DNA of 64,000 bases, from the NCBI RefSeq assembly GCF_018861905.1, contig NZ_JAHLDU010000005.1:62001-126000 (forward strand), in the 5' to 3' direction. Below, one piece after another: positions 4,235-63,438 of the stretch. Below the pieces are notes generated by a model. It made no database searches. It was not told where the DNA came from and worked only from the letters and a program-made list of their open reading frames with translations. Every line of letters begins with the position of its first letter. The stretch's first letter is position 1. A program made the position numbers and the translations under genes. Source of the DNA: Clostridium sp. DSM 17811 (lineage in GTDB: Bacteria; Bacillota; Clostridia; Clostridiales; Clostridiaceae).

Positions 4235-4237
4235 ATT

Positions 4238-38783: not shown

Positions 38784-38814
38784 TTGACTTAAAGTCAACT
38801 TTAAGTGGTATGCT
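38784..38814 (+). promoter_or_regulatory. MerR-type promoter, CTTAAAG box (site 2)
   Basis: TTGACT 38784-38789, 19-bp spacer, TATGCT 38809-38814. CTTAAAG-TCAA-CTTTAAG lies at 38788-38805. It directly precedes the aldo/keto reductase at 38877. Confidence 0.88.
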
Positions 38815-38876
38815 TGTTGTAAATACCAAGTAATAAATAATGAATGAAGCATCGACTTCTGAAAGGAAAGATTTAA

Positions 38877-39968
38877 ATGGAATATAGAGAATTACCTCAT
38901 GGTGGAGGAAAAGTAAGTACAATAGGAATAGGTGCGGGTAGCTTAAGCGAAGCGTCTCCACAGCAGGTCCGTAAAATAATAGAGTATGGTATGCAGAAGG
39001 GAATCAATCTTATGGATACAGTTATGTATGATTCTAGTGCACAGCCTGCTATTGCAGCTGCACTAGAAGGACATAGGGATAAGATGGTAATGCAGATTCA
39101 CCTTGGCGCCTATTATCCTCATGGACAGTATGTGCGTACACGAGACCTAAAGCAGTTGCAGAAAGGTTTTGAACAGGAACTTAAAAGTTATCACACTGAT
39201 TATGCGGATATAGGTATGATTCATTGTGTGGATGAAATGGAGGATTTAGAAAATATTATACATGGTGGCATTTTGGATTATGCTGTGAAATTGAAACAAA
39301 ATGGTATAATTCGTTATTTGGCAGTTTCTTCCCATTCTCCGAAAGCATGTTTGAAACTTTTAGAAACAGGAAAGATTGATTTATTTATGCTCAGTCTTAA
39401 CGCTGCCTATGATTTTGAGCCAGTTGGTGAAAAATTAACGTTATCAGATACAAGAATGAAACTTTATCAGGAATGTTCTAAGCGTGGTGTTGGAATAACA
39501 GTCATGAAACCTTATGGCGGAGGGCAATTATTGAATGATCGTACTTCTCCACTTGGAAGGAAAATGTCAATATATCAATGTATACAATATGCACTTGATC
39601 GTCCAGCGGTTTTATCTTGTTTGCCAGGAGTGCGTAATCTACAAGATTTAAAAGATGTTCTTAAGTATTATGATTTAGCGCGAAATGAAAAGGACTATTC
39701 ATTTATAGGCACTATGCAACGACAGGATATACAGGGGAGTTGTATTTATTGCAATCATTGCCAACCTTGTCCACAAGAAATTAATATCGGGTCAGTCAAT
39801 AAATATCTTGATTTGGCAAAGGCAGGGGATGAACTAGCAAGAGACCATTATCAGAACTTGAAACATCATGCATCAGATTGTATAGAATGTGGTGTTTGTG
39901 AAAAAAACTGTCCATTTCATGTGGAAGTAAGAAAAAAGATGAAGGAAGCTGTAGAGTTTTTTCAATAA
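38877..39968 (+). CDS. Aldo/keto reductase with C-terminal 4Fe-4S ferredoxin domain
   Basis: 363 residues. The AKR barrel spans about 1-280, with GINLMDTVMYDSS near 42 (Asp47 of the catalytic set), IGMIHCVDEME, and ITVMKPYGGGQLL. Two cysteine clusters follow, CIYCNHCQPCPQEI near 285 and CIECGVCEKNCPFHV near 333, each able to bind a 4Fe-4S centre. Unlike classic NAD(P)H AKRs, it may take electrons from ferredoxin. It is controlled by the MerR-type promoter 60 bp upstream and followed by a terminator, hence monocistronic; a carbonyl-detoxifying role is inferred. Confidence 0.9.
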   Translation: MEYRELPHGGGKVSTIGIGAGSLSEASPQQVRKIIEYGMQKGINLMDTVMYDSSAQPAIAAALEGHRDKMVMQIHLGAYYPHGQYVRTRDLKQLQKGFEQELKSYHTDYADIGMIHCVDEMEDLENIIHGGILDYAVKLKQNGIIRYLAVSSHSPKACLKLLETGKIDLFMLSLNAAYDFEPVGEKLTLSDTRMKLYQECSKRGVGITVMKPYGGGQLLNDRTSPLGRKMSIYQCIQYALDRPAVLSCLPGVRNLQDLKDVLKYYDLARNEKDYSFIGTMQRQDIQGSCIYCNHCQPCPQEINIGSVNKYLDLAKAGDELARDHYQNLKHHASDCIECGVCEKNCPFHVEVRKKMKEAVEFFQ

Positions 39969-39986
39969 TTTAGTTATATATCAGAG

Positions 39987-40012
39987 TGCACCTGGAAATG
40001 GGTGCATTTTTG
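39987..40012 (+). terminator. Terminator of the aldo/keto reductase gene
   Basis: TGCACC and GGTGCA flank a short loop, followed by a T5 run. The rest of 40013-40120 shows no gene. Confidence 0.85.
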
Positions 40013-40121
40013 CTTATTAAAGAATTTATTAAAGCGTTTAGTGAGTACCTTTGACGGTATATATATTGCAGTAACGTATTACTTATTAGTTTTAATAAAT
40101 AAAGTTCATAAGTAAAAGGGC

Positions 40122-40152
40122 TTGACTTGGAGTTCACTCCAAGTGGTAGGAT
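40122..40152 (+). promoter_or_regulatory. MerR-type promoter, CTTGGAG box (site 3)
   Basis: TTGACT 40122-40127, 19-bp spacer, TAGGAT 40147-40152. The perfect inverted repeat CTTGGAG-TTCA-CTCCAAG lies at 40126-40143. The arm sequence differs from the CTTAAAG class, suggesting another MerR paralogue. Confidence 0.82.
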
Positions 40153-40183
40153 ATATATAACATCAAAAAATTCAGAAAAACAC

Positions 40184-40214
40184 TTGACTTGGAGTTCACT
40201 CAAGGTGATACACT
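40184..40214 (+). promoter_or_regulatory. MerR-type promoter, CTTGGAG box (site 4)
   Basis: TTGACT 40184-40189, 19-bp spacer, TACACT 40209-40214. The left arm CTTGGAG is identical to site 3 and the right arm CTCAAGG is imperfect. Downstream, 40218-40298 holds only a 25-codon fragment without function; the next real gene is the nickel importer at 40353. Confidence 0.75.
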
Positions 40215-40352: not shown

Positions 40353-41333
40353 ATGCATATACCTGATAATTATTTAAGTCCTTCAACTTGTGCTGTTTTT
40401 GGAGTGGTTATGCTGCCTATATGGAGAAGGGCGAGTTTAAAGGTAAAAAATGAAATAACAAGGCAGAAAATGCCTCTTCTTGGAGTAGCAGCGGCCTTTT
40501 CATTTTTAATTATGATGTTTAATATACCTATTCCAGGAGGAACTACAGCCCATGCTATTGGGGGTGCACTTGTTGCAATTTTGCTTGGACCTTATTCTGC
40601 TGTTTTAGCGGTTACTATAGCACTTGTAATTCAAGCATTGTTTTTCGGAGATGGAGGGATTTTAGCACTGGCCGTAAATTGTTTTAATATGGCTTTTATA
40701 ATGCCATTTACAGCATTTTATTTATTCAAACTTACAAAAAAAATATTTAAAAACCGAAAGGGAGAATATATTGGAGCTTTCCTAGGTGGTTATATTTCAG
40801 TTAATGCAGCAGCTTTATTTGCCGCAGTGGAGTTGGGTGTTCAGCCATTACTATTTAAGGATTTTTCAGGACTACCACTATATAGTCCCTATGGACTAGC
40901 TGTATCCATTCCAGCTATGTTAATACCTCATTTATTAGTAATTGGAATTTTGGAAGGAATAATAACAGTTGGAGCTTATAGCTATATAAAAAAGGCATCA
41001 CCAGATGTAATATATAAAGGAAAAGCAAGTAAAATAAATCTTTTATACACTATAATAGGAATTATCATTTTAGCTACTCCTTTAGGACTTTTAGCAAATG
41101 GAACTGCCTGGGGAGAATGGGGATTAGAAGAGATTAAGCATTTTATAGGATTTGTGCCTAAGGGAATGGAGCAAGGATTTAAATTTAATTCACCAATTCC
41201 AGATTATAGTTTTGGATTTTTAAGTAGTTATTTTGGATATATTTTATCAGCATTAGCTGGGGTAATAATAATCTTAATTATTTTTAAGGTTTTAGAGAAA
41301 ATAAATTTGAAGAGAAATATAAAAGGAGATTAA
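40353..41333 (+). CDS. CbiM/NikM-type nickel (cobalt) transporter with fused N component
   Basis: 326 residues. The N-terminus MHIPDNYLSPSTC supplies the metal-binding Met1-His2 pair of NikM/CbiM. The first 230 residues are the seven-helix S-component, with FNIPIPGGTTAHAIGGALVA. A C-terminal extension with an extracytoplasmic segment (GFVPKGMEQGFKFNSPIPDY) and a last helix corresponds to the NikL/CbiN-like part. GGAGGGG precedes the ATG. Nickel is favoured over cobalt because lar genes follow. Confidence 0.88.
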   Translation: MHIPDNYLSPSTCAVFGVVMLPIWRRASLKVKNEITRQKMPLLGVAAAFSFLIMMFNIPIPGGTTAHAIGGALVAILLGPYSAVLAVTIALVIQALFFGDGGILALAVNCFNMAFIMPFTAFYLFKLTKKIFKNRKGEYIGAFLGGYISVNAAALFAAVELGVQPLLFKDFSGLPLYSPYGLAVSIPAMLIPHLLVIGILEGIITVGAYSYIKKASPDVIYKGKASKINLLYTIIGIIILATPLGLLANGTAWGEWGLEEIKHFIGFVPKGMEQGFKFNSPIPDYSFGFLSSYFGYILSALAGVIIILIIFKVLEKINLKRNIKGD

Positions 41334-42122
41334 ATGGTTCCAGAGTGGCTTTCAGAAAAAGATAATTACATTCCAAAGAAAGAAAAAAACTTATACATTG
41401 AAAAAAGTATTTTTTCTTTAATTAAAATAATTTCGATAATCAGGCAAAATAAAAATCAGGATAAATTAATTTATTCAATAAATCCATCCCTAAAGGTTGC
41501 AAGTACAATATTAATAATACTATGTGTATCTATTTCAAGAAGTTTTATATACCTATTAATAATAGATATATATGTGTTAATTAATCTTTTTCTTATAGAA
41601 AAGAAATTAAGTAAAAGGATATTGTTTAAAAGTTTTATTTTTCCTTTAATAACTTTAATAACATTAATACCATCTATGGTTTATGGAAATATATACAATA
41701 GTTTGTTAATTTTCCAAAAAATAATTATAACTATATTGCTTGTGAATATATTATCTCATACTAGTAAATGGAGTGAAATTAGCAAGTCATTAAAATTACT
41801 ATTTATACCAGATATATTTATATGGATTATGGATTTAACCATAAAATATATTGTTCTGCTAGGCGAACATTCTATTAACCTATTACATGCGTTAAAACTT
41901 AGATCAATTGGTATAACTCCTAATAAATATAATTCTCTCACAGGAATTATTGGAAATTTATTCATAAAGTCTTATAAAATGAGTGAAGAAATGTTTCATG
42001 CTATGGAATGTAGAGGTTTCGTAGGAGAATATACTATAAAAGCAAATTTAAAATTAAAGAAAGTAGATTATGTATATTTTATAATAAATATACTTTTACT
42101 TAGTTTGTTTATATTTTTATAA
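41334..42122 (+). CDS. Energy-coupling factor transmembrane protein (CbiQ/NikQ/LarQ type)
   Basis: 262 residues with about five to six transmembrane helices. The ATPase-contact motif EEMFHAMECRGFVGEY near 216-231 resembles the ECF-T Ala-Arg-Gly signature. It starts immediately after the M gene stop. It couples the S-component to the ATPase. Confidence 0.85.
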   Translation: MVPEWLSEKDNYIPKKEKNLYIEKSIFSLIKIISIIRQNKNQDKLIYSINPSLKVASTILIILCVSISRSFIYLLIIDIYVLINLFLIEKKLSKRILFKSFIFPLITLITLIPSMVYGNIYNSLLIFQKIIITILLVNILSHTSKWSEISKSLKLLFIPDIFIWIMDLTIKYIVLLGEHSINLLHALKLRSIGITPNKYNSLTGIIGNLFIKSYKMSEEMFHAMECRGFVGEYTIKANLKLKKVDYVYFIINILLLSLFIFL

Positions 42123-42156
42123 AAAATTATATCTGAAAAATCAAGGAGAATTATTA

Positions 42157-42882
42157 ATGATAAAATTAGAGAATATTTCATTTACATACAAGAATAAAAC
42201 AGCTCTTGATAATGTAAATGTCCATATAAAAGAAGGGGAATCTATAGCTATTATAGGTCCAAATGGAAGCGGGAAGTCAACCGTTTTAAAATTGTTAAAT
42301 GGTATTATTTTTTCAAGTCAAGGCAAATATATGTTTGATAACAATGAAATAAATGAACATACATTAAAGGATACTAAGGTCTTAAAACTATTTCATAAAA
42401 AATTAGGATTTGTATTTCAAAATTCTGATGCTCAACTATTTTGTTCTACTGTCTTTGAAGAACTGGCATTTGGACTTATGCAAATGGAACTACCAGAGGG
42501 AGAAGTAAATAAAAGAGTAAGAGATTGCCTTAATCTACTTAATATAGATAAGTTAAAAGATGAGCATCCGTATAATTTAAGCGGAGGAGAAAAGAAGAGG
42601 GTTGCAATTGCTAGTGTTTTAGCTATGAATCCAGACGTAATAACTTTAGATGAACCAATGAATGGGATAGATCCAAAAGGAAAAAGGTTTTTAAAAGAAT
42701 TACTAATTGATCTAAATAAATGCGGCAAAACTATAATTTGTGCAACACATGATTTTGAATATATAGAAGGCGTTTTTGATAGAGCTATAGTATTTTCAGA
42801 AGATCACAAAATAATAAGAGACGATAAATATGAAAAAATTATAAATGATTCAGATTTCTTAAGAAAATATAACATTATATAA
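42157..42882 (+). CDS. ECF transporter ATPase (CbiO/NikO/LarO type)
   Basis: 241 residues. Walker A GPNGSGKST near 32-40, Q-loop VFQNSDAQLF, signature LSGGEKKRVAIA near 137-148, Walker B VITLDEPMNGID. Powers the metal importer; AAGGAGAA ribosome site. Confidence 0.93.
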   Translation: MIKLENISFTYKNKTALDNVNVHIKEGESIAIIGPNGSGKSTVLKLLNGIIFSSQGKYMFDNNEINEHTLKDTKVLKLFHKKLGFVFQNSDAQLFCSTVFEELAFGLMQMELPEGEVNKRVRDCLNLLNIDKLKDEHPYNLSGGEKKRVAIASVLAMNPDVITLDEPMNGIDPKGKRFLKELLIDLNKCGKTIICATHDFEYIEGVFDRAIVFSEDHKIIRDDKYEKIINDSDFLRKYNII

Positions 42883-42940
42883 TTTTAAACATTGGATAAG
42901 ATAACATCTAAAATTCAAACAGTTAAAAGGGGTGATAAAC

Positions 42941-43801
42941 ATGGAAATTTTATATTACGATTGTTTTTGTGGAATAAGTGGCGATATGAATTTAGCGGCA
43001 CTAATAGATTTAGGAGTTCCTAAAGAATATTTAATAAAAGAACTTTTAAAATTAAATTTAAATACTGAATATGAAATAAAAATTGAAAAATCTGAGAAGC
43101 TTGGCATAATAGGAACTAGGGTAGATGTCATATTAAAAGGTAAATTAGATGATGAGATACATATTTCAGATAAAGATTTACATGGGCATAACCATGAACA
43201 CAATCATCATAATGGCGATGAAGAGCATCATCATGATGAAAATAACCATAGTCATGAACATAATCATAGAAACTTGAAAGGTATAGAAGAAATAATAAAT
43301 TCAAATGATTTAAGTGATAAGGTTAAAAAACTTAGTATAGATATGTTTATGAAGGTTGCAGAGGCAGAAGCAAAGGTCCATGGAAAACCATTATATGAAG
43401 TACATTTTCATGAGGTAGGAGCTATTGATTCAATTGTAGATATCGTAGGAGCAGCTATTTGTTTAGACTATTTAAATGTTGATAAAATTATTGCATCTCC
43501 AGTTCAAGTTGGAGGAGGGTTTGTTAAATGTGCTCATGGGCTTATGCCAGTACCAGCTCCTGCAACAGTAGAAATCTTAAAGAATATTCCTGTAAATTCT
43601 GGAATAGTACAATTTGAAACTACAACTCCAACTGGGGCGGCAATACTGGCAGCAAACGTTGAAGAATTTACTCGAAATGTTGATTTTTCAATTAAGAAGA
43701 TAGCATATGGAATAGGTCATAGAGATTTAGAGATTCCAAATGTTTTAAGAGTATATTTGGGTGAGAAAGAAAGTTGTGAAAAAGTAGGAGAGCAGATATA
43801 A
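42941..43801 (+). CDS. larC1: LarC1: nickel-insertion protein, N-terminal part only
   Basis: 286 residues from ATG 42941. Matches the LarC/DUF111 N-terminal domain: MEILYYDCFCGISGDMNLAA, VHFHEVGAIDSIVDIVGAAI and TTTPTGAAILA. A His-rich stretch near 83-113 fits nickel storage or delivery. In characterised systems LarC1 is joined to LarC2 by a programmed frameshift, and LarC2 carries the CTP site. Here the frame ends after YLGEKESCEKVGEQI, and larE starts 38 bp later with no LarC2 sequence between. LarC2 must be elsewhere or missing. Confidence 0.88.
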   Translation: MEILYYDCFCGISGDMNLAALIDLGVPKEYLIKELLKLNLNTEYEIKIEKSEKLGIIGTRVDVILKGKLDDEIHISDKDLHGHNHEHNHHNGDEEHHHDENNHSHEHNHRNLKGIEEIINSNDLSDKVKKLSIDMFMKVAEAEAKVHGKPLYEVHFHEVGAIDSIVDIVGAAICLDYLNVDKIIASPVQVGGGFVKCAHGLMPVPAPATVEILKNIPVNSGIVQFETTTPTGAAILAANVEEFTRNVDFSIKKIAYGIGHRDLEIPNVLRVYLGEKESCEKVGEQI

Positions 43802-43839
43802 AATAAAATCATGTATTATGGAGAGAGGCGGAAATATAA

Positions 43840-44664
43840 ATGATTAAAAATGAAAAGTATAATGAATTAATAAAATATATTAAAGGTTTAGGAAAAGTAG
43901 TTTTAGCATTTTCAGGAGGAGTAGATAGTACTTTTTTACTTAGAGTAGTTAAAGAAGCTCTTGGGGATAATGCAAAAGCAGTAACAATTATGTCTCCATA
44001 TATTCCAAAGTGGGAAATAGCAGAAGCAAAGGAATTAGCTAAAAAATTAGGAGTTCAGCATGAGATTATTGAAGCTCCAATTATTGATTCAATTAAATTT
44101 AATCCAGAAGATAGGTGTTACCATTGTAAAACTGCAGTGTTTGGTATGATATTAGCTATTGCGAAGGAGCAAGATTATAACTGTGTAATAGATGGAACTA
44201 ACTTTGATGATATAAGTGATTATAGACCAGGTCTTAAAGCATTAAAGGAATTAGAAATAAAAAGCCCACTTTTAGAATGTAAAATAACTAAAGCAGAAAT
44301 AAGAGCTTTTTCCAAAGAATTAGGGCTTAATACTTGGGATAAGCCAGCATACGCTTGTCTTTTAACACGAATACCTTATGGAAATGAATTGAAAGTAGAA
44401 GATTTTGAGAAGATCGAAAATGCAGAAAAATATATGATGAGCATAGGGTTTAGAGCGGTTAGAGTAAGATGTCATGGAGATTTAGCAAGAGTTGAAGTAA
44501 GTAAAAATGACAGAAGCAAATTATTTGACGAAAAACTTTTAGACACTATTTCTCAAAAGATAAAAGAATGTGGATTTAAATATGTAACATTAGACTTGCA
44601 AGGATATAGAGTAGGGAGCTTTAATGAAACTATAATTAAAAATTCATATGAGCAAAATAAATAA
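43840..44664 (+). CDS. larE: LarE sulfur transferase of nickel-pincer cofactor synthesis
   Basis: 274 residues. The PP-loop ATPase motif is SGGVDST (25-31). RCYHCKTAVF lies near 92-101. Cys173 in PAYACLLTRIPYG sits where the sacrificial sulfur-donor cysteine of Lactobacillus LarE lies. It adenylates and thiolates the carboxylates of the pyridinium dicarboxylate made by LarB. GGAGAGAGGCGG-type ribosome site. Confidence 0.9.
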   Translation: MIKNEKYNELIKYIKGLGKVVLAFSGGVDSTFLLRVVKEALGDNAKAVTIMSPYIPKWEIAEAKELAKKLGVQHEIIEAPIIDSIKFNPEDRCYHCKTAVFGMILAIAKEQDYNCVIDGTNFDDISDYRPGLKALKELEIKSPLLECKITKAEIRAFSKELGLNTWDKPAYACLLTRIPYGNELKVEDFEKIENAEKYMMSIGFRAVRVRCHGDLARVEVSKNDRSKLFDEKLLDTISQKIKECGFKYVTLDLQGYRVGSFNETIIKNSYEQNK

Positions 44665-44694
44665 AAAGTAAATAATATTGGGAGGATAAAGCTA

Positions 44695-45441
44695 GTGAAT
44701 AAAGAAGAAATAAAAGTTTTATTGGAAAGTGTTAAAGATAATAAAATAAATGTAGAAGAAGCTCTTGAAAAATTAGAAGATTTACCTTTTAAAGATTTAG
44801 GTTTTGCTAAAATAGATAATCAAAGAGAAATTAGAGTTGGTTATCCGGAAGTAATATATTGTGAAGGAAAAACAGTAGATCAAGTTAGAGATATTGTTAA
44901 ATATATGCTTACAAAAGATAATAATATATTAGGAACTAGAGCTAACGAAGAAATGTATAATGCAGTAAAAGAAATATGCATCGACGCCGAATATAATAAA
45001 CTTGGACGAACAATAACTATTAATAGAAAAAGAGAAACCCTTACAGAGAGTTATATAGCGATTGTTGCAGCAGGTACTTCTGATTTACCTGTTGTAGAAG
45101 AAGCGTTTGAAACTGCTAGAATATTAGGCAATAAAACTATTAAAATAATAGATGTAGGTGTTGCAGGTATACATAGGCTTTTCTCAAGATTAGATGTTAT
45201 TCGCGGAGCTAAAGTCGTTATAGTGATTGCTGGAATGGAAGGAGCTTTAGCTAGCGTTGTGGGAGGACTTGTAGATAAACCTGTAATAGCAGTTCCAACT
45301 AGTGTTGGATATGGAGCTAGCTTTGGAGGTATTGCAGCTTTACTATCAATGTTAAATAGTTGCGCCAGTGGAGTTAGTGTAGTAAATATAGATAATGGAT
45401 TTGGTGCAGCATATACTGCTAGTATAATTAATAAGCTATGA
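44695..45441 (+). CDS. larB: LarB carboxylase/hydrolase of nickel-pincer cofactor synthesis
   Basis: 248 residues. The C-terminal half has the AIR-carboxylase (PurE-like) fold: VAAGTSDLPVVEEAFETA near 122 and VIAGMEGALASVVGGLVDKP near 178-197, then PTSVGYGASFGG. It carboxylates nicotinate adenine dinucleotide and releases AMP, the first step of the pathway. GTG start after GGGAGGATAAA. No larA follows. Confidence 0.92.
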   Translation: MNKEEIKVLLESVKDNKINVEEALEKLEDLPFKDLGFAKIDNQREIRVGYPEVIYCEGKTVDQVRDIVKYMLTKDNNILGTRANEEMYNAVKEICIDAEYNKLGRTITINRKRETLTESYIAIVAAGTSDLPVVEEAFETARILGNKTIKIIDVGVAGIHRLFSRLDVIRGAKVVIVIAGMEGALASVVGGLVDKPVIAVPTSVGYGASFGGIAALLSMLNSCASGVSVVNIDNGFGAAYTASIINKL

Positions 45442-45522
45442 GTTAAATATGACTAATATTGCATTCGCTTATTTGAAGAAGAGGACAAGAATATATAATA
45501 AAAATATTTGGAGGTTGTAAAA

Positions 45523-46647
45523 ATGGAAAACAGTGTAAAAAAATTAGGATTTGGATTTATGAGATTGCCACTTATAAGCCCGGAAGATCAGAAAAGTGTT
45601 GATTATGAGCAGTTAAAAAAGATGGTAGATATCTTTATGGAAAGAGGATTTACCTATTTTGATACAGCATATCTGTATCATTCATTTATCAGTGAGAATG
45701 TATTGCAGGAAGTTTTGGTTAAGAGATATCCTAGAGATTCCTTCACAGTTGCTACTAAGATGCCAATGTTCATGGTAAAAACAGAAGATGATTTGGAGCG
45801 TTTATTTAATGAGCAGCTTACAAAGTGTGGCGTAGAATATTTTGACTACTATCTGTTACATAATATTGCAGGACAGTCCTATGATCTTGCACAAAAAGTC
45901 CATGCGTTTGAATTTATTCAGAAGAAAAAAGAAGAAGGAAAGATTAAAAATATCGGTTTTTCTATGCATGATTCTGCAGAACATTTAGATAGAATATTGA
46001 CAAATCATCCGGAAGTAGATTTTGTTCAGATTCAGTTGAATTACCTCGATTGGGAAAATCAGGGTATCCAGTCAAAGAAATGTTATGAAGTAGCAAAGTT
46101 ACATGGTAAGCCTGTAATCGTAATGGAACCAGTGAAAGGTGGGACTCTAGCAAATGTGCCTGACGCAGCAGCAGAAATTATGAAAGGATACCATTCAGGT
46201 ATGTCCATTTCTTCCTGGGCTATCCGTTTTGCAGCGAGCCTTGACAATGTCATGATTGTATTAAGTGGAATGTCAAGCATGGATCAGCTTTTAGATAATA
46301 CCGAATATATGCAGGATTTCAAACCATTGGATGAGAAAGAGCATGAAGTTGTAAACCGGGTTGTTGATATCGTTAATGAATCCATTTCCATTCCTTGTAC
46401 GGCATGTCGCTACTGTGTAGATGGATGCCCAAAGAAGATTGCAATTCCTGATTATTTTGCATTATATAATGCTGAAAAACAGGATACAAAGGGAGGATTT
46501 AAATCTCAGAGTATTTATTACACAAGCCTTACAGAACGTAATGGAAAAGCTTCTGACTGCATTAAGTGTAAAAAATGCGAAAAGATCTGTCCACAGCATC
46601 TGCCAATCACAGATTACTTAGAAGATGTTAAAGGCATGTTTGAATAA
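45523..46647 (+). CDS. Aldo/keto reductase with 4Fe-4S domain (second)
   Basis: 374 residues from ATG 45523 (TTGGAGGTTGT). AKR barrel with [13 protein letters not shown] near 45-57 (catalytic Asp-Tyr pair) and [14 protein letters not shown]. Cysteine clusters are [15 protein letters not shown] near 293 and [16 protein letters not shown] near 346. Codon choice is visibly less AT-biased than the lar genes, suggesting separate acquisition. No MerR box was seen upstream; terminator follows. Only about 30% like the reductase at 38877 by eye (rough impression, not computed). Confidence 0.9.
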
Positions 46648-46784: not shown

Positions 46785-47044
46785 TTAGAAAAAAATTTCA
46801 ATATAGCCAGATAAATATGAACAATTAAATACTGTTAATATTCGAAAAAAGGTTACACCGCTTAGAATTACACCAGTAATTAATAAAAGCGAAGAAATTA
46901 ATATGTACAAATGAATTTCTTTATAATATAATTTTTAGATATAGTACCTACTCTAACTATTTCAAGGCATTTTCTACTGGTAATTACAAGAACTATTACT
47001 ATAATAATCGATATGATATTAATTAATCCCAACATTATAGGCAT
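46785..47044 (-). pseudogene. Small membrane protein gene with a frameshift
   Basis: On the minus strand GGAAGGGG precedes ATG 47044; the frame (MPIMLGLINIISIIIVIVLV...) has one membrane helix and stops at 46898 after 48 residues. The neighbouring frame continues smoothly (EIHLYILISSLLLITGVILS, then VTFFRIL) to 46785 with a second helix. Together they look like one two- to three-helix protein of about 85 residues interrupted by a single indel. It may be a DUF3784-like small membrane protein, but this is uncertain. A MerR-type promoter lies upstream. Confidence 0.45.
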
Positions 47045-47173
47045 TTCCCCTTCCAAAGTTATGTTAGATTTATAATATATTGTTATTGCGATATCTATTA
47101 TTAATTCATGTTAATGTAAATTATTCATAGATGTGACGCATTATTTTTTTGCTTGTATATATTTGTTGTATAT

Positions 47174-47204
47174 ATCCTATCACTTAAAGTTAACTATAAG
47201 TCAA
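47174..47204 (-). promoter_or_regulatory. MerR-type promoter, CTTAAAG class (site 5, leftward)
   Basis: On the minus strand TTGACT (47204-47199), 19-bp spacer, TAGGAT (47179-47174). On the + strand the box reads CTTAAAG-TTAA-CTATAAG (47183-47200), one mismatch from perfect. It reads toward the frameshifted membrane protein gene. The rest of 47045-47315 holds no other gene. Confidence 0.8.
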
Positions 47205-49456: not shown

Positions 49457-49491
49457 AACGTAAAAATGTTTGTTGAGAGCCAAGATTAACT

Positions 49492-49549
49492 TGACATGGT
49501 ACTTTTAATATGCTATTTTTTAATAAAATAACTTAAAGTTAACTTTAAG
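49492..49549 (+). promoter_or_regulatory. merR-1 promoter with downstream CTTAAAG box (site 6)
   Basis: TTGACA at about 49492 and TATTTT 17 bp further form an ordinary promoter. The perfect box CTTAAAG-TTAA-CTTTAAG (49532-49549) lies downstream of the -10 instead of in the spacer. That placement suggests the MerR protein represses its own gene while activating the others. Confidence 0.7.
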
Positions 49550-50152: not shown

Positions 50153-50183
50153 TTGACTTAAAGTTAACTTTAAGTTGTATAAT
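50153..50183 (+). promoter_or_regulatory. MerR-type promoter, CTTAAAG box (site 7)
   Basis: TTGACT 50153-50158, 19-bp spacer, TATAAT 50178-50183, perfect box 50157-50174. The flanking sequence is nearly the same as at site 1, marking it as a copy. Confidence 0.88.
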
Positions 50184-52842: not shown

Positions 52843-52893
52843 GTTATATCGAACTCAATGATCGGAGTTTGATATAAATAATATTTTAAATAA

Positions 52894-54081: not shown

Positions 54082-54092
54082 GGAGGATACAA

Positions 54093-54671: not shown

Positions 54672-54826
54672 TTTTGTTGTTTTCATCTTATTTTAGATTA
54701 TATGTTGATGATTGATTTGTGGCAATGTATTGTGTTAATAGGTAAAAATGAAGAACATAGTAAATTGAAATAAATTATAAGGAGTAGTAAACACAATTAA
54801 ATTTTAAGAATTGGAGGATTGATTGT

Positions 54827-55342
54827 ATGAAAATATTAGTTTTAAACGGGAGTCCAAGGTTAAACGGTAACACAACAGCCATGGTGGATGCGTTTGCAGA
54901 AGGTGCACGGGAAAAGGGGCATGAAGTGAATATCATACCTGTTGGACAAAAGAAAATTGTCGGATGCCTTGGATGTGAATTTTGCCATACTCGTGGGAAT
55001 GGTCAGTGCGTGCAGAAAGATGATATGGGTGAAGTTTATAAAGAATTGGAAACAGCAGATATGCTGGTATTTGCTTCACCAATTTATTTTCACTCTATCA
55101 CCGGTCAGTTACAGTCTGCCCTCACACGTTTCTACGCAACTGGAAAACCGCGTAAAGTTTCACAGACAGCATTGTTTTTAAGCTCTGGTGCTCCAGGGGT
55201 TTATGATCCTGCAATACAGCAGTATAAACGTGTAATTAATTACTTTGAAGCCGAGGACAAAGGAATTAAGACGGTATATGGCGGGAACAACAAATCAGCC
55301 GAAATGTTTGCTGATATGAAGATATTTGGAAAAGCTCTGTAA
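54827..55342 (+). CDS. Iron-sulfur flavoprotein / NADPH-dependent FMN reductase family
   Basis: 171 residues with a flavodoxin-like fold: LVLNGSPRLNGNTTAMVDAF (FMN phosphate loop), FASPIYFHSITGQLQSALTR. Cys47-x2-Cys50-x2-Cys53-x7-Cys61 (GCLGCEFCHTRGNGQC) resembles the compact 4Fe-4S motif of Isf proteins. It may reduce quinones or other electrophiles. It lies 155 bp after the acetyltransferase, whose 3' flank is repeated elsewhere, and is followed by a strong terminator. Confidence 0.88.
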   Translation: MKILVLNGSPRLNGNTTAMVDAFAEGAREKGHEVNIIPVGQKKIVGCLGCEFCHTRGNGQCVQKDDMGEVYKELETADMLVFASPIYFHSITGQLQSALTRFYATGKPRKVSQTALFLSSGAPGVYDPAIQQYKRVINYFEAEDKGIKTVYGGNNKSAEMFADMKIFGKAL

Positions 55343-55441: not shown

Positions 55442-55472
55442 TTGACTTAAAGTTAACTTTAAGATGTATGAT
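55442..55472 (+). promoter_or_regulatory. MerR-type promoter, CTTAAAG box (site 10)
   Basis: TTGACT 55442-55447, 19-bp spacer, TATGAT 55467-55472, perfect box 55446-55463. The leader (to about 55492) equals that before the dehydrogenase copies. It is then joined directly to the last bases of the acetyltransferase (CCAGACAGGAGTAATTCTG, about 55496-55514), both genes having been deleted. Confidence 0.9.
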
Positions 55473-56237: not shown

Positions 56238-56268
56238 TTGACCTAGAGCTGACTTGAGGTGGTAATAT
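56238..56268 (+). promoter_or_regulatory. MerR-type promoter, CCTAGAG/CTTGAGG box (site 11)
   Basis: TTGACC 56238-56243, 19-bp spacer, TAATAT 56263-56268. The inner repeat CCTAGAG-CTGA-CTTGAGG (56242-56259) is imperfect and distinct from the CTTAAAG class. It precedes the acyl-ligase/ABC operon. Confidence 0.7.
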
Positions 56269-56355: not shown

Positions 56356-57699
56356 ATGAAGTATTTTAAATTATTATGGAATTTGTACAAGTTAAAAGGA
56401 AATACAGTGAAGACCATAGAGCAAATTAAAAGTTTACAAAATAAAAAGTTAAGGAAACTGCTTAACTATGCATACGAGAATTCAAAGTATTATCACAGAA
56501 CGTTCGAAGAAGCGGGAATAACAAGAGAACAGATTTCTACACTTCCAATTTCAGCTTTTCCAATTATAGATAAAGACCTTTTTATGAAACATTTTGATGA
56601 GTTGGTAACTAATGATGTTTTGAATCAGAATGATATACGAAAATTTGATAAAGAAGAGTCTGTAGACCACATAAAATTCAAGGATAAATATCATGTAGTG
56701 CATTCCTCAGGTAGTACTGGAAAACCGGGGTATTTTGTATACGATGAGGAAGCGTGGGATCAGATGCTTTTGGGCATTATAAGGGCTGCCTTTTGGAATA
56801 TGTCCATGCCTAAAATATTAAAGCTTTTGTTCAAAAGACCTCGAATTGTATATATTGCTGCAACAGATGGACGTTATGGTGGAGCTATGGCAGTTAGCAG
56901 CGGTGTAGAAGGGGTGCATGCAAATCAATTATTTCTGGACATTAAGACGCCTATTGCAGAATGGATAGAAAATTTACATAAGTTTAAACCCAATATGATT
57001 ATAGGTTATCCATCAGCTATCAAGATTCTTGGAGAACTTTTGGAAAAGGGAGAAGTACAACTCAAAGTATCTAGGGTGATTTCTTGTGGTGAACCACTTT
57101 GCTGCAAATTAAGAGATTATATAGAAAAAACTTTTCATGCAGATGTTGTGAATATCTATGGTGCTAGTGAATCTTTGGCTTTGGGTGTTGAAACTAATCA
57201 TGAAGAAGGTATGTATCTGTTTGATGATATGAATTATATTGAGGTGGAAGATGGAACTATGTATCTTACATCACTTTACAATTTTGCACAGCCCTTAATT
57301 CGTTATAAAATCTCAGATCAGTTATTACTAAAGGAGTCAGATGAAAAATGTATTTACCCATTTAATAAAGTGGAAAGTATCGTGGGCCGAAATGAGGATA
57401 TAATTTGGTTTGAAGATAAAGATGGAAATAGCGAATTTCTTCACCCACTTGCAATAGAAGGATTTTGTGTTGAAGGACTTTTGGATTATCAGTTTAGGCA
57501 AATAGATTGTAATTCATTTGAAATGATGATTGAAGTTTCTGATGAAGGAAAGAAAAATAGTATTCAATTGGGAATGCTAAAAAATATGGCAGAAATATTG
57601 AGTACAAAGCATCTAGAGTATGTGAGCTTTAATGTACGGTTTGTAGAAGAAATCTTACCTGATCCACAGACGGGAAAGAAGCGGTTGATTGTAAAATAA
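56356..57699 (+). CDS. PaaK/CapK-like adenylate-forming ligase
   Basis: 447 residues. Adenylation P-loop HSSGSTGKPGYFVYDEEAW near 117-135, then NIYGASESLALGVE near 270-283 and PLIRYKISDQLLL near 313-325, the order of phenylacetate-CoA ligase-type enzymes. The small C-terminal subdomain ends PDPQTGKKRLIVK. It should activate a carboxylic acid as acyl-AMP; the acyl acceptor (CoA or other) is unclear. First gene of the ABC operon, AGGAGGAATTA ribosome site. Confidence 0.87.
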   Translation: MKYFKLLWNLYKLKGNTVKTIEQIKSLQNKKLRKLLNYAYENSKYYHRTFEEAGITREQISTLPISAFPIIDKDLFMKHFDELVTNDVLNQNDIRKFDKEESVDHIKFKDKYHVVHSSGSTGKPGYFVYDEEAWDQMLLGIIRAAFWNMSMPKILKLLFKRPRIVYIAATDGRYGGAMAVSSGVEGVHANQLFLDIKTPIAEWIENLHKFKPNMIIGYPSAIKILGELLEKGEVQLKVSRVISCGEPLCCKLRDYIEKTFHADVVNIYGASESLALGVETNHEEGMYLFDDMNYIEVEDGTMYLTSLYNFAQPLIRYKISDQLLLKESDEKCIYPFNKVESIVGRNEDIIWFEDKDGNSEFLHPLAIEGFCVEGLLDYQFRQIDCNSFEMMIEVSDEGKKNSIQLGMLKNMAEILSTKHLEYVSFNVRFVEEILPDPQTGKKRLIVK

Positions 57700-57733
57700 A
57701 TATGTAATTAATATAAGAGTAAAGGAGTGAATT

Positions 57734-58495
57734 ATGAAAAAAATACTTTTATCAGCAGTGGATGTTTGTAAATCATTTAAAATAGGAAAAAATCATGTGG
57801 ATGTACTAAATAATGTTAGCGTCGACTTTTATGAAGGTGATTTTACTATTATTATGGGTGCTTCTGGAGCTGGAAAATCGACGTTACTTTATGCTTTAAG
57901 CGGTATGGACAAGATTAGTAAAGGCAAGGTGATATATAAAGAGAAAGAAATCAGCAGTCTTAGTGAAAAGCAAATAGCAAACCTTCGTTCACATGATTTT
58001 GGATTTGTATTTCAGCAGACTCATCTTGTTAGTAATCTTACCTTGTTTGAAAATGTAGCAGTTGCCGGGTATCTGGGAAAAGAGCGAAGCACGAAGGAAA
58101 CTTGTACACGAACAGAAGAACTGTTTAAGCAAATGAATGTCGGTAATGAAAAGGACCGAATTCCGTCGGAGGTTTCAGGAGGCGAAGCACAGCGGGCTAC
58201 AGTGGCAAGGGCAATCATTAATGAACCTGGAATTGTGTTTGCGGACGAGCCTACTGGTGCATTGAATAAGAACAATACGCAAGAAGTATTGAATATCTTA
58301 AGCGAATTAAATAAGTCGGGACAAAGCATTATTATGGTGACACATGATTTACGTGCAGCTTTGCGTGGTAATAGGCTGCTGTATCTTGAGGATGGAAAAA
58401 TCGTGGACGAAAAAGAAATGCCATCTTATGAACAATCGGATGGAAAGGACAGGGAAGTACAGCTTAATAACTGGCTTGCTTCTATGAAATGGTAG
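57734..58495 (+). CDS. MacB/LolD-type ABC transporter ATPase
   Basis: 253 residues. Walker A GASGAGKST near 40-48, signature VSGGEAQRATVARAI near 144-158, Walker B IVFADEPTGALN near 163-174, H-loop VTHD. It pairs with the FtsX-type permease 10 bp downstream. Such pairs export peptides or lipids or act as mechanotransmission complexes. Confidence 0.94.
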   Translation: MKKILLSAVDVCKSFKIGKNHVDVLNNVSVDFYEGDFTIIMGASGAGKSTLLYALSGMDKISKGKVIYKEKEISSLSEKQIANLRSHDFGFVFQQTHLVSNLTLFENVAVAGYLGKERSTKETCTRTEELFKQMNVGNEKDRIPSEVSGGEAQRATVARAIINEPGIVFADEPTGALNKNNTQEVLNILSELNKSGQSIIMVTHDLRAALRGNRLLYLEDGKIVDEKEMPSYEQSDGKDREVQLNNWLASMKW

Positions 58496-58505
58496 GAGGT
58501 GGAGT

Positions 58506-60857
58506 ATGGGTTTTATAACATTGCTGAAAGCTGGAATTAAACGGCAAAAGGGGAGCATAGCAGGACTATTTATACTTATTTTTACTGTGTCAGTTACGTT
58601 GGTAATGGCACTTACTGTATATATCAATTCGAGTAGTTACGTTAGTCAAGAGATGTCAAGAATGGGTTATGGAGATATGACAGCGTGGGTGAGTAACGTT
58701 GATAATTTGAATCAGCTGACAGAAAAAATACAAGGTCTTTCGGATGTGGAAAAAGTAGAGAACCAGACAGTTGTATTTGCAGGTTATGGCATAAACGGTA
58801 TAAACTCTGATGACGATGGGCAGTTGATTGCGTATGATTCTGATAAGTATCCTTATAAATTCCTAAATAACGGCTTAAGTGAACATGAGGATGTAAGGGC
58901 GGTAGGAAAGGGCGAAATTTACATTTCACCGTCTCTAAAGTTAAAACATAATGTGAAGATAGGTGATAAGGTTCATTTTAAACTTTCACGTAATGGTGAG
59001 GAAAAGGTTTTTACTATTAAGGGATATTTTGAAGATCCATTTATGGGCAGTTCTATGATAGACATGAAAAGTTTTTTGATAAGTGAAGCGGATTTGTTGG
59101 ACGTTAACGATATCCTTAGTAAAACATCAGATTTCGATATTTTGGGAAGGGATGGAGCAATGCTTCATATTTTCCAGAGAAGTAGCAGCAGTCTTTCACC
59201 ATCAGAATTCAATAAATCTGTCAATACTAATACAGGACTTACCCAATATACAGAATTTGCTTATTCAGATTCGTCAATATATGGATTTATGCTTATTTTA
59301 CAAAATATTTTTACAGGATTTTTGATTACATTTGTTATTATCCTTATTGTTATATCTATGATTGTCATGGGTCACAGTATATCAAATGCAATTGAGCAGG
59401 AATATAAAGATATGGGTATATTTAAGAGCATAGGCTGTACAAGTGGGAAATTGAGGTTATTACAGTTTTTACAATATGTTTCAGGAATTGTGGCAGGAAT
59501 GATTTTAGGATTCGTCTGTTCAATCTATGTCATTGATTTGGCAGCAAGACTTACTATAACATCAACTGGTCTGCTTATGCCAACAACACTTCCATATGGA
59601 TGGTGTATGCTTACTTTTGTAATCATATTATGTGTATTTGCACTATTTATATATATAAAAACAGTGAGAATTGTTCAAATATCACCGCTTCGTGCAATAA
59701 ATGGCAATACACAGGGACATGCATCATATATAAAAAGTAATACACTTTTTAAGTCGGAAGGATTAGCGTTTCATCTTGCCTTGCGTCAAATTGCATCTGG
59801 AGGAAAGCGATATGTCGGAACAGGCATTGTCACAATATTACTTGTGTTTTTTGTTTCTGTAGTGGGAAGGATGGACACTTGGATTGGACCAAATGGAGAA
59901 GGACTTATGAATGTGTTTAGCGTTGCTGACCACGATCTGGGTGTTAAGCCTCTTAGTAATGTGAATATGAAAACAGTCGAGAATATCATTTCTTCTTATT
60001 CTCAAATAGAAGATAAATACGAGATTGCAATGGAGAAAGTAACAGTAAATGGTGTGAATTATACAGCTAATGTAATAGATCAACCTTCACGCTTTCACAT
60101 ATTATCTGGTAATACCATTCGTGCAGATAACCAGATTGTCATAACGGAATTTGTAGCAGATGAGTTAGGGACAGGCATCGGTGACAGTGTAACTATTAAG
60201 AATGGGACCCTCAGTCATACATATATGGTAACTGGTATTTATGAATGTGCGAATGAAATGGGTGCCAACATAGGAATGAGCAGAGAAGGTTATGCGAAAA
60301 TAGGTAATGTTAATTCCTATATATGGTGTCATCATTATGTTCTTGCAAACTCATCGGTGAGTGATGAAATTAAAACATATCTTCAAAAAAAATATCCGGT
60401 GGATATGGAGGTACATACAAATAGCTGGTCGGGACTCGATGGAATCGTGAGTACCATGCACCTTTTAACCAAATTTATGTATGTAATTGTTGCAATCTTT
60501 ATTTCGGTGGTAATAGGACTTACCAGCAGTAAAATGCTACTTGCAGAACAGAGAGATATGGCTGTTTTCAAAAGTATCGGATTTACATCGTTAAAATTAA
60601 GAGTTGCCTTTGTTATGCGGTTTGGTATTGTTGTGACGGCAGGTACGGTAATTGGAATTGTTCTTAGTTGCATTTTTGCTGATCCAGTGATAACCATATT
60701 ATTAAAATTATTTGGTATAAGCAAGTTTGAGTCGACACTTGGATTTGAAAATGGAATAGTGATTCCGTTCATTATAATCGTACTATTTGTGGTATTTGCA
60801 TACATTTTCTCAAGAAAAATTAAAAAGGTAGATATTACAACTTTAATCAATAAATAA
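58506..60857 (+). CDS. FtsX/MacB-type ABC permease
   Basis: 783 residues. One N-terminal helix (about 20-40), a large external domain (about 45-255), three helices (about 262-390), then a linker, a fourth helix (about 430), a second external domain and three C-terminal helices (about 655-775). This duplicated-FtsX layout is usual for Gram-positive exporters and lipoprotein/peptide resistance pumps. AGGAGGTGG ribosome site. Substrate possibly linked to the upstream acyl ligase. Confidence 0.92.
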   Translation: MGFITLLKAGIKRQKGSIAGLFILIFTVSVTLVMALTVYINSSSYVSQEMSRMGYGDMTAWVSNVDNLNQLTEKIQGLSDVEKVENQTVVFAGYGINGINSDDDGQLIAYDSDKYPYKFLNNGLSEHEDVRAVGKGEIYISPSLKLKHNVKIGDKVHFKLSRNGEEKVFTIKGYFEDPFMGSSMIDMKSFLISEADLLDVNDILSKTSDFDILGRDGAMLHIFQRSSSSLSPSEFNKSVNTNTGLTQYTEFAYSDSSIYGFMLILQNIFTGFLITFVIILIVISMIVMGHSISNAIEQEYKDMGIFKSIGCTSGKLRLLQFLQYVSGIVAGMILGFVCSIYVIDLAARLTITSTGLLMPTTLPYGWCMLTFVIILCVFALFIYIKTVRIVQISPLRAINGNTQGHASYIKSNTLFKSEGLAFHLALRQIASGGKRYVGTGIVTILLVFFVSVVGRMDTWIGPNGEGLMNVFSVADHDLGVKPLSNVNMKTVENIISSYSQIEDKYEIAMEKVTVNGVNYTANVIDQPSRFHILSGNTIRADNQIVITEFVADELGTGIGDSVTIKNGTLSHTYMVTGIYECANEMGANIGMSREGYAKIGNVNSYIWCHHYVLANSSVSDEIKTYLQKKYPVDMEVHTNSWSGLDGIVSTMHLLTKFMYVIVAIFISVVIGLTSSKMLLAEQRDMAVFKSIGFTSLKLRVAFVMRFGIVVTAGTVIGIVLSCIFADPVITILLKLFGISKFESTLGFENGIVIPFIIIVLFVVFAYIFSRKIKKVDITTLINK

Positions 60858-61467: not shown

Positions 61468-61534
61468 CATTTGTAAACTGTCTTATAAGCAATGGTTAGA
61501 GTATCTCTGTTAAGTAGGGGTAAGGCAGGAGAGG

Positions 61535-62158
61535 ATGGTGGAAATGGAAATTGAATATTTATTGAAGGGTATATGTATAGGTCTTGTCTTTGGAGTACCA
61601 GTGGGAGCGATAGGTGCTCTTACAATAAGAAGAACAATTACACATGGTACTTTTGCAGGCCTAGCCTCTGGAATAGGATGCTCTACTGCCGATCTCCTAT
61701 ATTCTTTTATTAGTGTTTTTGGATTGACATTGTTTTCAAGTTTTATGCTGAAATATCAAAGCATAATCAGCCTTGTGGGAGGAGCTATGGTTATCATGAT
61801 GGGCGCTGGTATTATTTTGAAGAAGCAGGCGGTTGTTAAGGAAACTGCAAAAACTTCACAGATAATTTCTTTCTTTATGTCCTCTTTTGTGATAGCTATA
61901 ACAAATCCGACAACGATTATAACATTTGTTTTAGCATTCTCGATATTCCATATCGGTAGTATTAACTCCACTGTGCAATGCTTTGGACTTTGTTTAGGAA
62001 TATTCATTGGTACATGTATTTGGTGGGGACTCATTATCGCTATGATTCAGTTGTTTAGGAATCGTATTACTGGGAAGGTGTTCGTTAGATTGAACTACAT
62101 TCTTGGAAGCATTATTATCATGTTAGGAGCGGGGGTTGGAATTCGCGTACTGCTTTGA
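61535..62158 (+). CDS. LysE-family exporter
   Basis: 207 residues with six helices. LysE motif GICIGLVFGVPVGAIGALTI near 11-30, then GLASGIGCSTADLLYSFISV and a mid-protein FVIAITNPTTIITFVLAF. It exports amino acids or similar small metabolites. ATG 61535 follows AGGAGAGG closely; ATG 61544 is possible. Confidence 0.85.
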   Translation: MVEMEIEYLLKGICIGLVFGVPVGAIGALTIRRTITHGTFAGLASGIGCSTADLLYSFISVFGLTLFSSFMLKYQSIISLVGGAMVIMMGAGIILKKQAVVKETAKTSQIISFFMSSFVIAITNPTTIITFVLAFSIFHIGSINSTVQCFGLCLGIFIGTCIWWGLIIAMIQLFRNRITGKVFVRLNYILGSIIIMLGAGVGIRVLL

Positions 62159-62277
62159 CAGAACTGATTCTGGGAAATGATTTGTGTGGATAGTTTTTAC
62201 TAAAGATACTGGTTTCAGACTTTTATATATTATGCTAATGAACAAGCAAATTGTTGAGATCAGAAAGGAGATACAGA

Positions 62278-63378
62278 ATGAAGAAAAAAACAGGTGTGTT
62301 AATACTATCCGTACTTTTAGCTATATTTTTGTTGGCAGGATTCGTAGGAATAAGGTTTATGAAGAATAAGGAGGGTTCCACAATGGTAAATGTTCCAAAA
62401 TATGATGGCAACGTAGTAAAGCCTACTACGCAGCAAACAAAGCTGGAAGATTATTTTTCTGCTGTTCGATATGAGGGAAACTATGGATTTGATAGCTTTC
62501 TTAAACAGGGGGGGGCATCTTCTGATACAGCTGTAATTAAATTTTTAACCCAAAATAATCTGGTTTCAAGAGCAGATAAGCTGTCACTTAAAACTGAAGG
62601 TTTTGGTTGCAGTACGCTATCTGTCAAAAGTCCCAAGGGCGATGCCTTATTTGGAAGAAACTTTGATTGGCAGGCATGTAATGCATTGGTGGTTTCTTCA
62701 AAACCTTCAGACGGCTATGCCTCTGTTTCTACAGTGAATATGGACTTTATCAGTGCTGGATATGGAGGAAGCATAGATAAATTGCCAGAGAAAGTGCGCA
62801 CTATGGTAGCGCTTTATGCACCGCTGGACGGTATGAATGAAAAAGGACTTAGTGCAGCGGTGCTGATGATTGAAGATTCTGATAATATCAATCAGAATAC
62901 CGAAAAACCGGATATTACAACGACAACTGCCATTCGTTTGTTGCTGGATAAAGCTGCAAATGTAGATCAAGCAATAAATCTTTTAAAACAGCATGATATG
63001 CATGCCTCGATGGGGTTGATGGTGCATTTTGCTTTGGCTGATACTGAAGGACACAGTGTGGTTGTGGAATATGTTGATAATAAGATGATTGTAACAAAAA
63101 CACCTGTAATTACCAATTTTTATTTAGCTTCTGGTGAAAAAAATGGAATTGGAACAGCCCAATCCCATTCTAGATATGATATTTTAATGAAGCAACTAAG
63201 TAAGACAACAACCATGAGCATGGAAGAAGTCCGTGATGCAATGGATAGCGTAAGCAAGCATAACTTTAAAGATGCTGAATCTACCGAATGGAGTGTAGTC
63301 TACAACCAAAGCAGTGGTGAGGTGCGATATTACCATCGGGAAAATTATAAAAAGGTGTATACATTCCATGTTGAATAA
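62278..63378 (+). CDS. Secreted or membrane-anchored Ntn amidase (linear amide C-N hydrolase family)
   Basis: 366 residues from ATG 62278 (AAAGGAG). An N-terminal membrane segment (about 6-26) places the rest outside. The Ntn-hydrolase core has CSTLSVKSPKGDALFGRNFDWQ starting near residue 101, with Cys as presumed nucleophile and GRNFDW family motif, then LSAAVLMIEDSDN and YNQSSGEVRYYH. Relatives cleave linear amides such as acyl-homoserine lactones, bile salts or penicillin V. The nucleophile is not at the N-terminus, so processing before Cys would be needed. Confidence 0.82.
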   Translation: MKKKTGVLILSVLLAIFLLAGFVGIRFMKNKEGSTMVNVPKYDGNVVKPTTQQTKLEDYFSAVRYEGNYGFDSFLKQGGASSDTAVIKFLTQNNLVSRADKLSLKTEGFGCSTLSVKSPKGDALFGRNFDWQACNALVVSSKPSDGYASVSTVNMDFISAGYGGSIDKLPEKVRTMVALYAPLDGMNEKGLSAAVLMIEDSDNINQNTEKPDITTTTAIRLLLDKAANVDQAINLLKQHDMHASMGLMVHFALADTEGHSVVVEYVDNKMIVTKTPVITNFYLASGEKNGIGTAQSHSRYDILMKQLSKTTTMSMEEVRDAMDSVSKHNFKDAESTEWSVVYNQSSGEVRYYHRENYKKVYTFHVE

Positions 63379-63407
63379 TATAAAATTTAAGAATTTTAAT
63401 TAAGGCA

Positions 63408-63438
63408 TTGACATGAAGTTAACTTTAACCATTATGAT
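63408..63438 (+). promoter_or_regulatory. MerR-type promoter, degenerate CTTAAAG class (site 12)
   Basis: TTGACA 63408-63413, 19-bp spacer, TATGAT 63433-63438. The centre AAGTTAACTTTAA is kept and the outer arm bases differ (CATGAAG-TTAA-CTTTAAC). Confidence 0.72.

Follow-up and report, generated by a model that had tools for sequence, protein, structure and literature searches.

The question raised by a 64,000-nucleotide stretch of Clostridium sp. DSM 17811 (NCBI RefSeq assembly GCF_018861905.1, contig NZ_JAHLDU010000005.1, positions 62,001 to 126,000 of the forward strand; hereafter the window) is which regulators read the palindromic boxes that recur within the spacers of its promoters, and what joins the genes that lie behind them. 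The sequence points to a neighbourhood of electrophile- and thiol-stress genes that is probably under the control of several paralogous MerR regulators of the AdhR/NmlR group, with three predicted sub-regulons.

All ten promoters claimed in an initial annotation of the window are present, each with a palindrome within a 19-bp spacer between TTGAC-type and TA-type hexamers, as are a perfect box at 49532, before merR1, and a decayed one at 51338, before merR2. Nine of the ten were recovered by a filtered promoter search and the tenth, at 56238, by a three-mismatch pattern and direct reading. The 18-bp box at up to three mismatches occurs 12 times in the AT-rich window, compared with a mean of 8.55 in shuffled sequence (12 or more in 17/100 shuffles, not significant), and the whole genome contains 728 such matches per strand versus 701 in the control. 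The box alone is therefore uninformative, and the full promoter pattern, TTGACTTNNAGTNNACTNNAAGTNNTA, was used at up to three mismatches. The window contains 12 matches, at 11 places, whereas 40 first-order random sequences with its base steps average 0.05 and reach one at most. In the genome, 23 matches were found at 22 places, one palindrome being scored on both strands, and the reversed pattern gave two. The claimed MerR-type activation architecture is thus borne out, since a palindromic operator lies inside the spacer of the promoters and, according to the available part of one study, MerR-family operators occupy the 19-20 bp spacers of their targets (PMC9909328). No Rfam match was found at gathering scores in 38000-64000. 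Members of the MerR family activate by kinking promoter DNA. Here, a MerR dimer on the palindrome within the 19-bp spacer would keep the promoter unusable, and a change at a conserved cysteine would lead the dimer to kink the DNA, such that RNA polymerase could use it.

The sites had been described as dispersed, but 17 of the 22 full-pattern places fall within C5:76932-142628, 1.3% of the genome. These comprise 16 promoters and the merR1 operator in one 66-kb neighbourhood, which continues 17 kb past the end of the window and contains four merR paralogues. Exact CTTAAAG-N4-CTTTAAG boxes number six in the 5,187,316-base genome, all within C5:76936-117463, a count that does not by itself show which regulator reads them. 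A largely syntenic cluster is present in G001, of the same genus, where 14 of 15 matches at up to two mismatches lie inside 62 kb and the remaining one at 2.19 Mb. Similar packing is seen in G026 (8/8 matches in 25 kb) and G050 (5/5 in 25 kb), and 36/60 relatives have no match to the promoter pattern. In G026, which belongs to another genus, the tight cluster at C6:1-40000 (L173, L174) holds three MerR4-type genes among promoters of GGAG/AGAG type, each of these genes having a separate 19-bp promoter some 25 bases before it. A literature search yielded no title on such a promoter cluster in Clostridium among the matches listed.

Three classes of box can be told apart by sequence. Class A is CTTAAAG..CTTTAAG. 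Class B reads CTTGGAG..CTCCAAG or CTCTAAG, and 75777 carries a GAAG variant; class C is AGAGCTGACTTAAGG, TTGAGG or GAAGTTGACTTAAGG, of the AGAG..TTAAGG type. The promoters and the genes behind them are as follows, with counterparts noted in G001 and in G007, taken as C. algoriphilum; FMN denotes flavin mononucleotide, Fe-ADH iron alcohol dehydrogenase, ABC ATP-binding cassette and ORF open reading frame.

14932..14962, plus strand: copy of a class A promoter, with TTGACT-19-TAGAAT around CTTAAAGTTAACTTTAAG and flanks that recur at 50134-50237 and 55423-55490.
15190..15768, plus strand: hexapeptide acetyltransferase copy, its reading frame disturbed in the first half.
38784..38814, plus strand: class A promoter before an Fe-S aldo/keto reductase; same class and same gene in G007, protein 96% identical.
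38877..39968, plus strand: aldo/keto reductase with C-terminal 4Fe-4S domain (PF00248, E 1.6e-21; Fer4_17 and Fer4_9 above cut-off).
40122..40152, plus strand: class B promoter (CTTGGAGTTCACTCCAAG), the first member of a tandem pair, with counterparts in both G001 and G007.
40184..40214, plus strand: second of the tandem pair, left half class B, right half class C-like (CTTGGAGTTCACTCAAGG); identical 18-bp box in G007.
40353..46647, plus strand: CbiM-type nickel/cobalt transporter genes, larC/larE/larB-like genes and a second Fe-S aldo/keto reductase.
46898..47056, minus strand: short membrane-peptide-like ORF, 52 codons from TTG or 48 from the ATG after a GGAAGGGG site.
47174..47204, minus strand: class A promoter (CTTATAGTTAACTTTAAG) facing the short ORF; kept in G001.
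50153..50183, plus strand: class A promoter; gene fragments and a truncated cyclophilin-like ORF come after it.
50568..50957, plus strand: Cyclophil_like2 ORF (PF18050, E 2.5e-33) without the lipobox stretch of its copy at 55617.
51918..51948, plus strand: class A promoter before lipoprotein, Fe-ADH, acetyltransferase and FMN reductase genes.
52111..55342, plus strand: Cyclophil_like2 lipoprotein-like protein, Fe-ADH, hexapeptide acetyltransferase and NADPH-FMN reductase.
55442..55472, plus strand: class A promoter before a Cyclophil_like2 lipoprotein (55617-56141).
56238..56268, plus strand: class C promoter (CCTAGAGCTGACTTGAGG) before an acyl-ligase-like gene and ABC transporter.
56356..60857, plus strand: AMP-binding-like ligase, ABC ATPase and FtsX-type permease.
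63408..63438, plus strand: variant class A promoter (CATGAAGTTAACTTTAAC) before a DUF3737 gene starting at 63584 (PF12541, E 1.5e-128).
Window-equivalent 64605, 65097, 71285, 73362, 75777 and 80602: further promoters beyond the window, from the pattern and promoter searches.

The redox and detoxification genes that had been proposed behind the boxes are indeed there. Class A promoters precede genes for the Fe-S aldo/keto reductase, Cyclophil_like2 lipoproteins, Fe-ADH, hexapeptide acetyltransferase, FMN reductase, an alpha/beta hydrolase and DUF3737. Class B promoters precede the CbiM-type transporter with its lar-type genes and a group of flavodoxin-like, DUF362, carboxymuconolactone decarboxylase and cupin genes. 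Class C is found before merR3, before the FMN reductase gene after merR3 and before the acyl-ligase/ABC operon.

Two of the candidate regulators are encoded in the window:

49579..49995, plus strand: MerR1 (PF13411, 60 bits, cut-off 21.6), HiNmlR-like, with the sensor cysteine kept and serine as helix residue.
51385..51801, plus strand: MerR2, a duplicate of MerR1 (85% identical; PF13411, 60.8 bits, cut-off 21.6).

Both thus carry an N-terminal MerR winged helix-turn-helix above the Pfam cut-off. MerR3, at window-equivalent 64685, and MerR4, at 80936, lie in the neighbourhood outside the window, and a fifth paralogue, MerR5, is on contig 7 with its own box adjoining. The proposal that the two named merR genes belong to the AdhR/NmlR clade and encode the sensor cysteine is upheld, and the residue corresponding to Cys52 of AdhR is present in MerR1, MerR2 and MerR4. 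The nearest solved structures to MerR1 are H. influenzae chains (E 7e-28), with 44% identity of MerR1 and 41% of MerR2 to the 5d90 chain. None of the four proteins exceeds the 175-bit cut-off of the NmlR equivalog model NCBIfam NF041849 (MerR1 86.8, MerR2 86.4, MerR3 122.4, MerR4 139.3), nor does any protein of 14 control genomes, B. subtilis included. Two AdhR-like proteins (L305 and L308, from a set of four loci in which an AdhR-like gene lies opposite what we take to be an adhA-like gene) share 50-54% identity with MerR4, 40-46% with MerR3 and 26-30% with MerR1 and MerR2. The AdhR label given in the initial annotation therefore suits the class A box, which we take to be the AdhR box, but not the two merR genes to which it was attached, the true AdhR relative being MerR4 and neither MerR1 nor MerR2 being the AdhR orthologue encoded opposite adhA.

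Electrophile sensing is suggested by the conserved cysteine and by what is known of these relatives. In the parts of PMC4776306 consulted here, the NmlR-clade cysteine is called absolutely conserved and is needed by both HiNmlR and B. subtilis AdhR. The alternative that these are MerR-type promoters answering to some other inducer, such as a metal, drug, or flavin or quinone metabolite, is a possible though less likely account, and the likeliest of the alternatives considered. The targets include a nickel/cobalt transporter and lar-type genes, NimR, a MerR protein, is reported in the extract of PMC9909328 to control nickel uptake in H. influenzae, and genes of the efflux ABC type are present. 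The sensor cysteine is missing from MerR3, and arginine takes its place there and in MerR5; the same parts of PMC4776306 state that S-alkylation of NmlR or AdhR had not been reported. The missing cysteine of MerR3 and this statement count against electrophile sensing. On the other side, the clade cysteine is retained by MerR1, MerR2 and MerR4, and aldo/keto reductases, alcohol dehydrogenases and flavin reductases recur. Moreover, an alcohol dehydrogenase and a carboxymuconolactone decarboxylase are named as AdhR targets of B. subtilis in the available part of PMC11577753, and the latter is also encoded here. Control by electrophile-responsive MerR paralogues is therefore preferred.

The initial annotation had assigned one box to a single regulon read by both MerR proteins; instead, the four merR genes and three box classes suggest a division of labour. 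MerR1 and MerR2 would read class A (AAAG), and so the Fe-S aldo/keto reductase, Fe-ADH operon, lipoprotein, alpha/beta hydrolase and DUF3737 promoters. MerR4 would read class B (GGAG and near variants), before the nickel transporter/lar-type, flavodoxin-like, DUF362 and cupin genes, and MerR3, without the cysteine, may read class C, before its own gene, the FMN reductase gene and the acyl-ligase/ABC operon. The claim that the boxes are linked to the two named merR genes fits well with other genomes, in which homologues of those genes often adjoin such boxes. A similarity search with MerR1 supplied 80 loci, and these contain 48 such promoters, their reversed sequences containing none. A box lies 300 bp or less from 54/93 MerR-like ORFs, from 66/113 in a scan blind to the two discriminating base positions, and 81/147 have one in an enlarged protein-fetched set. 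In the resulting 81 merR-box pairs, serine or proline two residues before L-R-Y-Y goes with AA on both half-sites in 27/27 cases, compared with 1/54 for aspartate, histidine or tyrosine. In a box-fetched set, 19/24 ORFs have a box, with AA for serine in 2/2, aspartate in 1/6 and tyrosine in 0/2, although many of these loci were chosen for AAAG and their A counts are favoured. At the level of whole genomes, 194 of the family were compared: class B promoters are found in 41/51 with a strong MerR4 homologue and in 10/143 without.

Several observations weigh against this account. Histidine goes with AAAG in 7/9 cases of the box-fetched set, six of them from a K-x-H subfamily, so the helix-residue rule is not general. 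The boxes of Bacillus-type AdhR proteins, in which the residue is alanine, are one AA and three mixed at four loci. A tree of 97 proteins requires four residue changes and six box changes. It has four independent contrasts, of which one lies on well-supported branches; with so few, relatedness may be the cause of the residue-box pairing. MerR1-like proteins go with the two classes to a similar degree: class A promoters occur in 21/38 genomes that have such proteins (21/156 without) and class B promoters in 23/38 (28/156 without). The presence of MerR4-type proteins likewise raises the frequency of class A (21/51 versus 21/143). The genome-level test of whether class A follows MerR1 was consequently set aside as not specific. 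One genome, G006, has a class A promoter and no MerR1 match. Packing into a cluster is not general either, matches being mostly scattered in G028 (ten) and G034 (six). The K-x-H-T-L-R-Y-Y subfamily (L070, L253, L257, L265, L269, L272) has boxes such as AAAGTGCACTTT, and all six members have arginine at the position of the sensor cysteine.

It may be asked whether the classes are anything more than tolerated variation within one regulon, all of whose boxes are read by MerR1 and MerR2. The ends resembling CTT..AG..CT..AAG and the 19-bp geometry are common to all boxes, and those at 40184 and 75777 look like mixtures of classes. Nevertheless, the class is kept at all six promoters that have the same downstream gene in this genome and in G007, although gene order differs. 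Class B tracks MerR4-type proteins over the 194 genomes, and the G026 cluster combines its three MerR4-type genes and GGAG/AGAG-type promoters with no class A match in the genome; the box of a MerR1-like gene at another place in that genome is CATAAAG..CTTTACC. A single regulon is thus considered unlikely, and separate reading of the classes by paralogous regulators is favoured.

MerR1 may also control its own gene, as the arrangement upstream of merR1 suggests:

49491..49519, plus strand: ordinary merR1 promoter, TTGACA-17-TATTTT, a consensus match.
49532..49549, plus strand: class A operator of merR1, the centre of a 26-bp perfect palindrome downstream of that promoter.
51338..51355, plus strand: decayed class A operator before merR2.

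Consensus promoters with a 17-bp spacer are no commoner in the merR1 region than in shuffles (12 versus 15.4), and the merR1 promoter is therefore argued from its position rather than its score. Only 12 bases separate it from the start of the perfect box, and a dimer bound at this downstream operator should block transcription, so that MerR1 would repress its own 17-bp promoter. The operator is identical in G001, one base off in G007 and weaker in L085 and L275; it is not evident in the examined stretches of L276 and L277. The merR2 copy is decayed in both this genome and G001.

The neighbourhood is rich in rearranged copies, including merR1/merR2, lipoproteins, promoters and copies of DUF362 (66%), and the set would have grown through local duplication of promoter-bearing segments. 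Flanks are shared by 14932, 50153 and 55442, by 38784 and 51918, by 40122 and 73362, and by 56238 and 64605, so several of the named sites are copies and not all are independent. Identity is 89% between 40056-40169 and 73296-73409, and 86% between 56216-56280 and 64582-64647, the merR3 promoter region. The DNA of 15115-15809 and 54018-54712 is 91.5% identical, with the protein differing at about residues 21-69. The copy at 14932 consists of the promoter, a remnant of the alcohol dehydrogenase start and the acetyltransferase copy, and the G001 counterpart of the acetyltransferase-copy sequence aligns to the main cluster, not to the place of 14932. Two promoter copies (14932 and 50153) precede damaged genes. 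The stretch 50130-50608 is a mosaic of promoter, acetyltransferase fragments and ends, and lipoprotein leader, ending in the truncated lipoprotein ORF.

The boxes themselves are well conserved. For the six promoter pairs with the same downstream gene in this genome and G007, the 18-bp boxes are identical at 100/108 positions and the 60-base flanks at 516/761, where unrelated 60-mers align at 45%; as a box was required in both genomes, box identity is somewhat favoured. A first count with ten pairs gave 167/180 and 780/1283. Four pairs were then removed: 47204 and 80602 for want of a match among the downstream genes, 73362 because one of the genomes has the matching gene more than 2 kb further away, and Fe-ADH because one of them has a lipoprotein gene in between. 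Similar boxes accompany similar genes elsewhere: an acetyltransferase faces a single MerR1 homologue with an identical box in Acetobacterium bakii (L146), an alpha/beta hydrolase (L134, L155) or an FMN reductase (L139) faces one at other loci, and in L127 an Fe-S aldo/keto reductase faces a MerR1 homologue behind an AGAG box. Many loci of Bacilli have a zinc alcohol dehydrogenase there (2/2 by Pfam, another four with 82% identity or more to one of these, others with similar N-termini), and less fitting are a TraX-like gene (L132) and a DXP-synthase gene (L151). That the boxes are a spreading repeat carried along by duplications, mostly without regulatory role, is very improbable, for although duplicated flanks surround several boxes, some of them before broken or chimeric genes, the boxes are much better conserved than the flanks, the -35 and -10 hexamers keep a constant spacing, the controls on reversed sequence give few matches or none, and the same gene types adjoin this kind of box in unrelated genera.

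More tentatively, and with rather less confidence than in the paralogous control itself, the regulon may be enlarging in place, with MerR paralogues and promoter segments both duplicating, and one helix residue (serine or proline for AAAG, aspartate for GGAG) could insulate three interleaved circuits. If so, the neighbourhood would show, as a natural experiment, how promoters are shared out among paralogous regulators, with the regulators, their boxes, the history of duplication and a candidate specificity switch of one residue all in view. Cyclophil_like2 lipoproteins, DUF3737, DUF362, a short membrane peptide and genes of the nickel-pincer type would also be tied to candidate electrophile-responsive promoters, by which the roles of such proteins become testable.

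Some further features concern individual genes. The genes at 40353-46647 (PF01891, E 2.1e-62 at 40353; PF00248, E 1.2e-46 at 45508), some of which we take from the sequence to be larC/larE/larB-like, probably form one operon, as do those at 52111-55342. In G007, the tandem promoters and the transporter gene are about 1.3 kb apart, with another ORF in the gap, and a class A promoter stands directly before the Fe-ADH gene. The short ORF at 46898-47056 is the sole apparent target of the class A promoter at 47204; a role of this promoter for the ArsP/DUF362 genes was considered and dropped, as its strand and the ORFs show that it faces the short ORF. The lipoprotein gene at 52111 has a tandem 135-bp duplication near its start (52144-52413, 91% identical), which doubles a signal-peptide-like stretch. 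The ligase in 56356-60857 scores 27.4 bits for AMP-binding, under the Pfam cut-off of 29.9. Outside the cluster, two DNA repeat pairs (3875-4278 and 11846-12553) are 94-95% identical, and one of them overlaps an ORF at 11925 that is TetR-like by eye.

The system can be compared with three that have been described. In common with the B. subtilis AdhR (YraB) regulon, the neighbourhood has predicted MerR-type control, the conserved cysteine, and alcohol dehydrogenase and carboxymuconolactone decarboxylase genes. AdhR upregulates three genes in B. subtilis, as given in the available portion of PMC4776306, whereas at least 16 promoters and four regulators are found here. No zinc alcohol dehydrogenase was found among the subset of neighbourhood proteins run through Pfam. 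The pairing also differs, the AdhR relative here being MerR4, with a predicted GGAG box, and the AdhR-type box being predicted for the HiNmlR-like MerR1 and MerR2. The sensor cysteine of MerR1 aligns with that of the H. influenzae chains, PDB 5e01 being labelled HI_0186, which we take to be NmlR, and 5d90 and 5d8c having the same aligned stretch. MerR1, however, falls well below the NCBIfam NmlR threshold mentioned above. In H. influenzae, NmlR controls adhC-estD, according to the same portion of PMC4776306. Finally, in the accessible text of a study of heavy-metal MerR proteins, column 14 (E, K, D and others) holds the two most significant pairs (PMC5045206). Judged from its place two before I/L-R-Y/F-Y, the residue that tracks A or G in the boxes appears to be this column, the pairing of serine or proline with A and of aspartate, histidine or tyrosine with G coming from the present analysis rather than from that study.

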